Source: Bacteroides sp. Marseille-P3684
GTDB taxonomy: Bacteria > Bacteroidota > Bacteroidia > Bacteroidales > Bacteroidaceae
NCBI RefSeq assembly: GCF_900291465.1
Contig: NZ_LT985808.1
Span: 1-64,000 of the forward strand
Length of the DNA stretch: 64,000 nucleotides
Reading direction: 5' to 3'
Both the position numbers and the translations under genes were made by a program. Every line of letters begins with the position of its first letter. Position 1 is the stretch's first letter. Positions 9,586 to 62,574 of the stretch are shown here, one piece after another. Below the pieces are notes generated by a model. That model searched no databases and was not told where the DNA came from. It was given only the letters and a program-made list of their open reading frames with translations.

Positions 9586-9832
9586 AGCAATTGACAAGGG
9601 ACAATGGACTAGGAACAATTGCCTTTCGGCATGAGGTTGTTTCCACCCGACCATGAATGTAGGGGCGACATAACACAATTGACAATTGACAATGGACAAT
9701 TGACAATTACCTTGCGGCGTGGGGAATGTGACTGCAAGGCGATAATTGTCCATTGTCAATTATCAATTGTTAATTGAATATGTTGGACCGGGCGACCAGA
9801 CCGGTCGCCCCTACACCGTGGGTATTTCCCTA
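9586..9832. repeat. Intergenic repeat cluster with TTGTCAATTGTC and GTAGGGGCGAC motifs
   Basis: Four or more tandem or inverted copies of ACAATTGACAATTG-like units (about 9674-9708 and 9752-9778) lie between inverted copies of an 11-mer, GTAGGGGCGAC (9659-9669) and GTCGCCCCTAC (9804-9814). A GC-rich hairpin, GGGCGACC/GGTCGCCC, lies at 9790-9810. The same combination reappears at 62519-62574 beside the other 564-bp element. No coding potential is seen. Short traces (CAATTGACAAGGAACAATTGACC) also occur at 43119-43140. Confidence 0.7.
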
Positions 9833-10396
9833 TTGTCACAATGACACCGTTTTCCCGGTTTTAACATCACATTTTCCCGATTTGCCGTTTTTAGCTAACG
9901 CACAAATCCGCAAATTCGTCCCTTCTGGAAAATCGCGCGTTAAATATTTTAAGAAAGGCCCGTCAGAACGTGCCTAAATAAACGTAAGTTTACACAAATA
10001 CATCCTTTCTAACATGAAAAGAGCATCCGCCTCCCCCCTTTTTACGGTCAAAAGCACCTGTGACTGGCTTCGTACGGACGCGTCCGCACCACCGTACCGA
10101 CGTGTCCGCACGCTCGTAGTCGTTCGTCCGTACGAAAACAGGCACCTGTCCCCATTTTTTAGCGACCGAAGGGGCACGATTTCCGATGTGTGAAATTGCG
10201 TCCTTCCGTATGAAAAGACCGACGGAAGGGAATAAATACGGAGAAGAATACGGCAAAAGGGAAGGGAACAGTCGGAAAAACCGTCCATGTGCATTTCACG
10301 AATCGCCCGAGAAGCCCCTTCCCGGTCACCAACTCGTATTTTGCCGCAACGAAGGCCCTTCACGGACGGTTCGTTTGACGTTTTGACAGAATGACA
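9833..10396 (+). repeat. 564-bp intergenic element, subtype A, copy 1
   Basis: The whole segment is matched in reverse orientation by 61945-62508, which has the same length. It begins TTGTCACAATGACACCG, contains TTTTTAGCTAACGCACAAATCCG near 9889 and ends TTTGACGTTTTGACAGAATGACA, so its ends are roughly complementary around TTGTCA/TGACA. A block near 10300-10375 (CGAATCGCCCGAGAAG, then TATTTTGCCGCAACGAAGG) is shared with the subtype B elements. No frame looks like a gene. It fills the space between the exporter operon and an outer-membrane protein gene. Confidence 0.85.
10072..10133. repeat. Array of three 18-bp near-palindromes with 22-bp period (subtype A)
   Basis: Units start at 10072, 10094 and 10116: GTACGGACGCGTCCGCAC, GTACCGACGTGTCCGCAC and GTAGTCGTTCGTCCGTAC. 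Each is separated by 4 bp (CACC, GCTC), so the repeat length is exactly 22 bp. The outer arms TTCGTACGGACG and CGTCCGTACGAA also make a 12-bp inverted repeat over the whole array. Confidence 0.85.
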
Positions 10397-37070: not shown

Positions 37071-37606
37071 TTTCACAAATTCCCATTTTCCCGTTTTCAG
37101 CTAACGTGCATTCTTGAATAAAGAGACAAAACAGCAAGCGAATGCAAAAGAACGCTAACAGAAACGCCCGAAAAAGGCTTTGATTTTAGAAAACTATACA
37201 TTTCGTTTTCGGAATATTGCCCAAACGTGCCCGGAACAATAGTGTTTCGCGAGCCAAACAATATAGTTTGAGGCGTCAAACAATATAGTTTCACCTGCCA
37301 AACACGATTGTTTCGTGCCCGGAAGTCAAATCTTTGGAAAATAAAAGAGAAAAATTCGGAGTTTCACTCTCTGGAAGAAGTGCTGTGTCAACAAATCAGA
37401 AGGTAATAAAAGAGCAGGGGAACAGCCAAGGCAGGTATCAGAAAGAGATGCCACAGACTTTATTCTGTCCGTCGGTCAACCGGAACAGGGACAAAGCCGA
37501 CAATGTGTATTTTGCGAATCGTTTGAGAAGGCCTGTTTTGGGCACGAAGCTGCATTTTGGTGCGAAGAAGGGCACTGTAGAAGGCTTCATTTGACATTTT
37601 GTCAAA
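37071..37606 (+). repeat. ~536-bp intergenic element, subtype B, copy 1
   Basis: Begins near TTTCACAAATTCCC, contains CCGTTTTCAGCTAACGTGCA at about 37091-37110 and ends CATTTGACATTTTGTCAAA. The 3' block TGTATTTTGCGAATCGTTTG (from 37505) matches 47398 onward, and a looser form occurs in the subtype A copies. The middle holds a 22-bp-phased palindrome array. No coding frame is credible. Confidence 0.78.
37234..37314. repeat. Array of four 15-bp near-palindromes with 22-bp period (subtype B)
   Basis: Units start at 37234, 37256, 37278 and 37300: GAACAATAGTGTTTC, AAACAATATAGTTTG, AAACAATATAGTTTC and AAACACGATTGTTTC. The 7-bp spacers differ (GCGAGCC, AGGCGTC, ACCTGCC). Confidence 0.85.
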
Positions 37607-37690
37607 CTGGGGAAACAGCTCCCGTCGGTCGGGGAAACACGAACAGGGACAGGTGCACCCTCTCCGCAAAAGGGAGAGGGCGACACCGGA

Positions 37691-45359: not shown

Positions 45360-45455
45360 ATGATTTACGGTTACATACGTGTCAGCAGTGATAAAGAACT
45401 TAATATTAGAACTTTTGAAAGCTGGCGTATCACGCCGAAAAATAGCTCCAAATAA
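45360..45455 (+). pseudogene. Remnant of a serine recombinase (resolvase/invertase) N-terminus
   Basis: The frame begins MIYGYIRVSSDKE, which is the catalytic start of serine site-specific recombinases (Tyr-x-Arg-Val-Ser with the nucleophilic Ser), then diverges and stops after 31 codons (ending NSSK). Full proteins have about 190 residues or more. I read it as a decayed fragment marking past mobile DNA. Confidence 0.6.
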
Positions 45456-45473
45456 AGAAGTATATGAATAAGC

Positions 45474-46961: not shown

Positions 46962-47496
46962 TTGACAAATTTACCCAAAACATACGTTTCAGCTAACGCG
47001 TATTTTTGAGGAATCGGGCAAAGTAGGTTATTTTAGGAATATTCATGCGAGACGGAACGCATAGATATTCAGAAGCAGGGGCAAAAACGAATATTTATAC
47101 TGCGAAACAATATTGTTTGAGAAGTCAAACACTTGTGTTTGGCACGTGAAACAATATTGTTTGACGACCCAAACAATATTGTTTCGTCCGTCGAATAAAA
47201 ATGTTTGGAGTAAAAAAGACCTGTTTTACGGTTCTTATACATTAATTTATGTTCATTCACCTTTAGTTTATCCGTCAGGACGCACAATGCGAGCGTGTGA
47301 TTATGCACAGCTTTCGGCTGAAGGAAGAACTCACCGCGGCTATATCCAATCAATACATAGACAAAAGACAGGCAAATGCGGTCCTATCATTTCAAAGTGT
47401 ATTTTGCGAATCGCCTGAGAATTCAAAAAAATCCAGCAAGCCGTATTTTGGCGCGAGCATCGCCGTTTTCAGGGCATTCGTTTGACAAATTGACAA
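46962..47496 (+). repeat. ~535-bp intergenic element, subtype B, copy 2
   Basis: Begins TTGACAAATTTACCC, has CGTTTCAGCTAACGCG near 46985 and ends CGTTTGACAAATTGACAA, so the two ends are both TTGACAAATT-like. The 3' block AGTGTATTTTGCGAATCGCC (from 47397) and CGTATTTTGGCGCGAGCATCG match the other three elements. It carries the clearest palindrome array of the four. Confidence 0.8.
47105..47185. repeat. Array of four 15-bp palindromes with 22-bp period (subtype B)
   Basis: Units start at 47105, 47127, 47149 and 47171: AAACAATATTGTTTG, AAACACTTGTGTTTG, AAACAATATTGTTTG and AAACAATATTGTTTC, with 7-bp spacers AGAAGTC, GCACGTG and ACGACCC. The second unit changes both arms together (AAACAC/GTGTTT), which keeps the dyad. 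Confidence 0.88.
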
Positions 47497-47562
47497 CACC
47501 GTCTTTCAGATGAGAGGGAAGTGTCAAAATGATAATATCGCTTTCAGAAAAGTGTTAGACAA

Positions 47563-61944: not shown

Positions 61945-62508
61945 TGTCATTTTGTCAAAGTGTCAAACGAAGCCGCCGAGAAGGGCCTTCGTTGCGCCAA
62001 AATACGGAGGGATGACCGGGAAGGGAATTCTCAGGCGATTCGTCCGGTGCACCTTGACGGCATTTTCGTCCGTTTCCTGTCCTCCTGCACTGTTTTTCTC
62101 TTCCTTCGTTCCCTTCCGTTGGTCTTTTCACACGGACGGGCACAATTTCACACCTGCGGAATCGTGTCCCTCCGGGCGCTGAAAAATGAAAACAGGTCCC
62201 TGTTTTCGTACGGACGAACGACTACGACGGTGCGGACACGTCGGTACGGTGGTACGGACGCGTCCGTACGAAGCCAATCACAGGTGCTTTTGACCGTGTG
62301 TATGGGTGCGGAAGATGGTTTTTTCGCGTTAGAAAGAGTGTAATTATACAAACGTATGTTTATTCTGATGTGTTCTGACGGACATCTCTTAAAATATTTA
62401 ACGCGCGTTTTTCTAATTGGGACAAATTTGCAGATTTGTGCGTTACCTGAAAACGTTGAATTGGGGAAATGTGATGTTAAAACCGGGAAAACGGTGCCGT
62501 TTTGACAA
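61945..62508 (-). repeat. 564-bp intergenic element, subtype A, copy 2 (inverted)
   Basis: Reverse complement of 9833-10396 with many scattered substitutions but the same 564-bp length. Minus-strand landmarks are TTGTCAAAACGGCACCG at its start, GTTTTCAGGTAACGCACAAA, the palindrome array, CGAATCGCCTGAGAAT and CGTTTGACACTTTGACAAA at its end. It fills most of the gap between susE and the TonB receptor. Confidence 0.85.
62208..62269. repeat. Array of three 18-bp near-palindromes with 22-bp period (subtype A)
   Basis: Plus-strand units start at 62208, 62230 and 62252: GTACGGACGAACGACTAC, GTGCGGACACGTCGGTAC and GTACGGACGCGTCCGTAC. The last is a perfect 18-bp palindrome. Spacers are 4 bp (GACG, GGTG). 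Confidence 0.85.
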
Positions 62509-62518
62509 ACGGGGAAAA

Positions 62519-62574
62519 ATCCATTGTCCATTGTCCATTGTCCATTGTCAATTGACAATTGTCGCCCCTACATT
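62519..62574. repeat. Short repeat cluster TCCATTGTCCATTG with GTCGCCCCTAC
   Basis: Four tandem CCATTGT units run into CAATTGACAATT and then GTCGCCCCTAC (61-mer region 62519-62574). The same motifs make up the 9586-9832 cluster, and in both places they abut the TTGTCA end of a 564-bp element. Confidence 0.7.

Follow-up and report, generated by a model that had tools for sequence, protein, structure and literature searches.

Given that short palindromes of unrelated sequence recur at the same 22-bp period on the chromosome of Bacteroides sp. Marseille-P3684, we asked whether the spacing of these palindromes, rather than their sequence, is the constrained feature, and what role such arrays might play. 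The locus that raises this question lies in the first 64,000 nucleotides of contig NZ_LT985808.1 (hereafter the window, that is, the whole stretch of DNA that was analyzed) and consists of an unstranded core array at 37234-37313. As a preliminary description of the window had proposed, the array contains four dyads at a 22-bp period; they are imperfect, 14-15 bp long each, and start at 37234, 37256, 37278, and 37300, with a period of exactly 22. The array reads GAACAATAGTGTTT-cgcgagcc-AAACAATATAGTTT-gaggcgtc-AAACAATATAGTTT-cacctgcc-AAACACGATTGTTT and can be divided, again without strand, into dyad 1 (GAACAATAGTGTTT, 37234-37247), spacer 1 (CGCGAGCC, 37248-37255), dyad 2 (AAACAATATAGTTT, 37256-37269), spacer 2 (GAGGCGTC, 37270-37277), dyad 3 (AAACAATATAGTTT, 37278-37291), spacer 3 (CACCTGCC, 37292-37299), and dyad 4 (AAACACGATTGTTT, 37300-37313), the last being a near reverse complement of dyad 1. 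It forms the core of a ~0.55-kb intergenic dispersed element, whose subtypes have common ends and different cores: subtype A (28 copies) carries three 18-bp GTACGGACGCGTCCGTAC dyads, subtype B1 (43 copies) the dyads AAACAATATTGTTT and AAACACTTGTGTTT, and subtype B2 (34 copies, including the one at 37234) the dyad AAACAATATAGTTT.

The conclusion that the 22-bp spacing, and not the sequence, is the constrained feature, as the preliminary description had suggested, is strongly supported, with a wider rule of 21-23 bp, or two helical turns. Copies with other spacings were looked for, and 294 of 303 steps in the 78 B-type arrays proved to be 22 bp. With gaps left free, the dyad-pair pattern occurred well above chance, at 222 places in the 3.7-Mb genome versus 25 for a reversed control, the latter count being inflated because the pattern is partly symmetric. 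When 906 kb fetched around the elements was scanned for three palindromes at one constant period, irrespective of their sequence, 75 hits were obtained at 22, 29 at 33, and none at the other 16 periods, which span 16 to 32. The apparent second period of 33 was rejected, as it stems from the same arrays through an alternation of dyad- and spacer-centered palindromes: the spacers are weakly palindromic, and symmetry centers therefore fall every 11 bp. Also in line with the earlier claims, subtype A differs from B in dyad and unit length and shares its period (18-bp dyads, 4-bp spacers, period 22), and type C arrays, which join AAACACNNGTGTTT and AAGTATAATACTT dyads in about a dozen units and lack the right block described below, again combine unrelated dyads with a period of about 22 bp. 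Long type C arrays of AAACACNNGTGTTT and AAGTATAATACTT near this period lie at C1:128404-128690 (L159) and C1:148565-148800 (L160) of this genome.

The same spacing is found with unrelated dyads in congeners. In one of them (G001), 20 of 20 GAACGTTC pairs were spaced at 22 bp when 12-42 bp were allowed, and all listed GAAACNNNNGTTTC pairs in G010, G012, G005, G014, and G001 were at 22 or 44, in searches that allowed gaps of 4-34 or 4-30 bp. The first three arrays of G001 have no flanking sequence in common, and therefore the array itself is the unit there. To cover the order, 80 Bacteroidales loci (1.39 Mb) from named genomes of Phocaeicola, Bacteroides, Parabacteroides, and others were fetched via the malate dehydrogenase gene and are therefore not selected for arrays; the malate dehydrogenase of the present genome is itself 98% identical to Phocaeicola records. 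Triplets of similar palindromes in this set numbered 12, 14, and 4 at periods of 21, 22, and 23, with only two others, at 42, while block-shuffled Bacteroidales sequence gave none at any period and 250 kb of Escherichia coli, under the same triplet criterion, gave single hits at 21 and at 18. By this criterion, another genus (G019, a single contig) has eight arrays in 900 kb, all at 22, along with stray matches, one each at 16 and 18; its two dyad families occupy separate regions, with CAAATCAACTTGTTTTG at 212-1681 kb and CCAATTCAAGTTAGATTGG at 1930-2589 kb. In yet another genus, a 22-bp tandem repeat, AAACGTTTCYGTTT-NNACGATC, at G180:C1:13836-13893 (L163) possibly belongs to the same class.

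Within the genome, conservation differs between subfamilies, which bears on the earlier description of the spacers as free. This description is apt for B1, in which dyads reach 1.87 bits per column against 0.84 for the spacers and 0.72 for the near flanks, and in which the spacers retain an S-A-C-N-N-G-T-S bias despite their variation. It fails for the copy at 37234, because the entire B2 core is conserved (dyads 1.86, spacers 1.59, near flanks 1.65 bits per column); its spacers follow CGCG[A/C]GCC, a GNNGCGTC-like and a CACCTGCC-like sequence, and spacer 1 is kept across the subfamily. In B1 copies (e.g., L010 versus L013), sub-arrays look inverted or reshuffled between constant outer flanks, and the spacer CACTCGTC of one B1 place is found as its reverse complement, GACGAGTG, in another. 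Between species, the array upstream of mdh is near-intact amid diverged flanks in strains of B. mediterraneensis and in a third genome, and the same holds for a shared locus in two Parabacteroides. In a B. caecigallinarum group, the dyad centers change between species in several units together.

From left to right, the element consists of a left end (TTTTCAGCTAACGC-like, from 37094) and a left arm, then the array itself, and then a right arm followed by a 120-bp right block. Its conserved left end, TTTTCAGCTAACG, lies at 37094-37109 on the plus strand, with weaker similarity ~55 bp further left, and its right block (model R1) lies at 37494-37610 on the plus strand; this block is common to A, B1, and B2 elements, ends in CATTTGACATTTTGTCAAA, and in the 37-kb element closes with CGTTTGACA..TTGACA. 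A sequence profile search, in which 150 of ~1050 first-look candidates were scored, yielded ~111 good right-block copies on the 3.7-Mb chromosome, and the length of the element is near-constant among copies except for 22-bp steps. Positions of elements derive from these searches and from fetched stretches, and gene calls are our own. The subtypes proved to have no terminal inverted repeat in common (A copies carry short TTTGTCAAAA/TTTTGACAAA at their ends, whereas the ends of B1 and B2 copies are directly oriented), and no offset gave consistently duplicated k-mers of the kind expected from target-site duplication. The right block has one clear match in congeners (G003) and two marginal ones, and an exact 22-bp piece of it had no match in other species in a scan of named genomes. 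The relative in G003 (G003:C52:66014-66130, L165) precedes a tex-like gene by ~180 bp and is without a dyad array.

Further elements lie in the window. A second B-type array, of subfamily B1 and with a period of 22, is found at 47105-47184 (unstranded), with its right block at 47389-47497 (plus strand). Two A-type arrays of three 18-bp, GTACGGACGCGTCCGTAC-like dyads with 4-bp spacers at period 22 flank these: the one at 10072-10133 on the plus strand has its right block at 10278-10396 on the plus strand, and the one at 62208-62269 on the minus strand has its right block at 61945-62064, also on the minus strand. Close to A-type elements, 7-bp tandem repeats (ACAATTG, TCCATTG) occur at window positions 9675-9776 and 62520-62563 and also at L080 and L084. 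The genes tested beside the array at 37234-37313 encode a GDSL lipase and one unassigned protein. At 45394-45468, the group II intron domain model RF02004 gives a sub-threshold match (26.9 bits versus a gathering score of 34.5).

On the chromosome, the elements are evenly spread and avoid the terminus. The origin was placed by a parS-like site (TGTTNCACGTGAAACA, the parS motif) just after mnmG/gidA at 463.7 kb, with its antipode at 2.32 Mb, together with the GC-skew minimum at ~0.6 Mb in sampled sequence, where the maximum is at ~2.4 Mb. Counted in distance rings from the parS-like site, the elements number 4, 7, 8, 8, 10, 9, 7, 8, 6, 6, 8, 6, 10, and 6, a distribution that is flat to ~1.4 Mb, and then 4, 1, 0, 2, and 1. 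The zone at 1.90-2.70 Mb, within ~400 kb of the terminus and picked after seeing the data, holds 4 of the 111 elements versus 24 expected (p = 7.5e-8); the emptiest 800-kb window among 500 random placements held 8. Only two gaps are shorter than 8 kb versus ~24-26 expected from position-jittered controls, the minimum gap is 5.4 kb versus ~0.3 kb expected, and none of the fetched neighborhoods contained a second copy near an element. The subtypes differ in their median distance to parS (A, 377 kb; B1, 837 kb; B2, 1088 kb; p = 1.4e-7), with A supplying 20 of the 24 elements between 620 and 1020 kb, and the summed density stays flat although the subtypes occupy different regions. These measures describe right-block elements; arrays without a right block (type C and others) are listed to ~1.54 Mb. 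In addition, two A-type dyads spaced at 22 bp are found as a pair at C1:458486-458525 (L072), 5 kb from the parS-like site.

Taken together, the even placement, the avoidance of the terminus, and the indifference to gene context documented below fit a chromosome-scale role similar to that of SlmA. We regard the arrays, which would function much as SlmA or Noc sites do, as candidate sites for a dimeric protein with such a role, a reading to which we would assign a probability of roughly one half. The palindromes suggest a homodimeric DNA-binding protein on each dyad, and the two-turn spacing would align neighboring dimers along the same face of the helix, where they may bind cooperatively, such that three to five or more units could form a high-affinity station and a strong nucleation site. 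Such stations might mark the non-terminus chromosome for organization, segregation, or control of division. Turnover of the sequence with the spacing kept could mean that the specificity of the protein family drifts while its packing stays constant, and the three or more core subtypes are probably read by paralogous proteins or by one of shifting specificity. More tentatively, it is tempting to speculate that the arrays constitute a Bacteroidales-wide chromosome-marking system, in which fixed two-turn palindrome arrays keep their spacing, remain evenly distributed, and stay out of the terminus while their sequence turns over, and in which a fast-evolving DNA-binding protein might organize the chromosome or block division.

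Several observations weigh against this reading. A binding protein was not found: lone dyads outside arrays, sought as a sign of an autoregulated regulator, gave only further arrays, including the A-type pair at 458.5 kb and type C arrays. The chromosomal pattern comes from one genome and from its right-block elements, with the other arrays mapped to ~1.54 Mb, and the recent acquisition of DNA near the terminus could account for the sparse zone. For G019, only nine arrays were seen in the 900 kb, and their absence from the regions sampled near the GC-skew maximum is weak evidence. Finally, the right block is near-confined to one species and thus looks like a lineage-specific spreading element.

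This last observation leads to the main rival, which takes the ~0.55-kb unit for a non-autonomous mobile element resembling a miniature inverted-repeat transposable element (MITE; compare BrickBuilt, below), with the dyads recognized by a transposase or an accessory protein, target immunity producing the even spacing, and reduced access explaining the avoidance of the terminus. We consider this account unlikely, even though ~111 intergenic copies of near-constant length, with common ends and swappable cores and nearly confined to one species, speak for it, and immunity combined with spread over short distances would suit the minimum spacing and the way subtype A clusters locally. Neither target-site duplications nor terminal inverted repeats shared by all subtypes accompany these copies, and no autonomous relative was seen, though no search of transposase families was made. 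Moreover, the arrays of G001 stand alone without homologous flanks, arrays at shared loci are kept between species, and arrays recur across the order with unrelated sequences; mobility would explain spread within one species but none of these features, the order-wide period included. Both accounts could also be partly true, with a functional array riding on a spreading element. We give hardly any credence to the idea that the arrays are neutral minisatellites, that is, functionless tandem palindromes arising by replication slippage; the sub-array inversions and reshuffled spacers of B1 copies would suit it, while the period spectrum, confined to 21-23 over unrelated sequences, the combination of conserved dyads with variable spacers, and the conservation at shared loci do not.

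A local effect on transcription, with arrays acting as operators, insulators, or terminators that isolate neighboring genes, appears still less probable than mobility. Palindromes do resemble operators, 25 of the 26 arrays at named Bacteroidales loci are intergenic, and BrickBuilt segments show bidirectional promoter activity (PMC4596501). However, divergent, tandem, and convergent contexts are all present (35/46/19 for the elements of this genome; 9/12/4 at the named loci, plus one coding overlap), and the distance to the start codon is not fixed; the mixed contexts argue against a single promoter role, and local action would not by itself yield even kilobase spacing or avoidance of the terminus. 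Structured RNA or cruciform DNA, with each array folding as one long hairpin, is very improbable: B arrays fold strongly as single strands (z of -5 to -7), but so would any chain of palindromes, and spacers 1 and 3 are not mutually complementary, which disfavors the long hairpin. Complementarity of spacers across it did not exceed that of permuted pairs (B1, 3.54 versus 3.92; B2, 2.55 versus 2.57), no Rfam family scored above its gathering score in 36.9-47.7 kb, the right block is without a consensus structure, and a two-turn period would not follow from a constraint on folding. Other identities were rejected as well. A set of parS/ParB sites is contradicted by the single parS-like site in the genome, which lies beside mnmG, with none in the arrays, and an array of clustered regularly interspaced short palindromic repeats (CRISPR) by a whole period of 22 bp and spacers of 4-8 bp versus roughly 25-40 nt.

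Little is known to us of how Bacteroidales, which are dominant gut bacteria, organize and segregate their chromosomes or keep division clear of the nucleoid. Arrays that occur across the order and are recognizable by their period alone would both serve as bait for the protein and yield a map of stations that can be tested, and spacing that is kept while sequence changes across species would represent an unusual protein-DNA coevolution at many loci at once. No published description of these arrays was found in the literature searched, whose coverage mostly excludes subscription journals; if the chromosome-marking reading is true, such a system would be previously unrecognized.

How do the arrays compare with known systems? 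Cooperative protein sites spaced by ~22 bp are familiar from iterons and from the 22-bp transposase sites of Mu and Tn7. There, however, the sites are direct, conserved in sequence, and located at origins or at the ends of transposons, whereas the present palindromes are dispersed and change in sequence. Repetitive extragenic palindromic (REP) sequences, 20-40-bp palindromes tagged GTAG or CGTC (PMC3733652), and the related bacterial interspersed mosaic elements (BIMEs) share with our arrays the character of high-copy intergenic palindromes, but the dyads here are 14-18 bp long and chained at a two-turn period. Within the same order, 22- and 23-nt tandem repeats have been reported in Porphyromonas gingivalis, where the BrickBuilt MITEs are intergenic, reach up to ~1 kb, and consist of a leader, a tandem 23-nt core, and a tail, with ~19 copies, IS5-like (insertion sequence) terminal inverted repeats, and repeats said to be spacer-free (PMC4596501). 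The elements described here are likewise short, noncoding, intergenic, and multicopy (~111 copies of ~0.55 kb); they differ, as far as BrickBuilt repeats can be compared by description, in having dyads with spacers and in lacking a consistent terminal repeat or target duplication. In Sulfolobales, SegB recognizes a 13-bp palindromic motif that is spread over the chromosome, leaves a site-poor region, and is linked to organization and segregation (PMC12284271). Scattered palindromes with a site-poor chromosome region are thus common to both, but the SegB sites are archaeal, single, mostly intragenic, and conserved in sequence, and fixed-period arrays have not been described for them. The Noc sites of Bacillus subtilis, too, are palindromes that occur dispersed along the chromosome but not in the terminus region. 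They are single sites of fixed sequence, in contrast to the species-specific arrays of two-turn period seen here. SlmA recognizes a 12-bp palindrome with 50 sites in E. coli K-12 and none in the terminus region, Ter (PMC3116907), and the right-block elements likewise form a set of tens of scattered palindromes that avoid the terminus. While SlmA sites are single, fixed in sequence, and mainly in coding DNA, the arrays described here are intergenic, repeat at two helical turns, and carry a sequence specific to each species.
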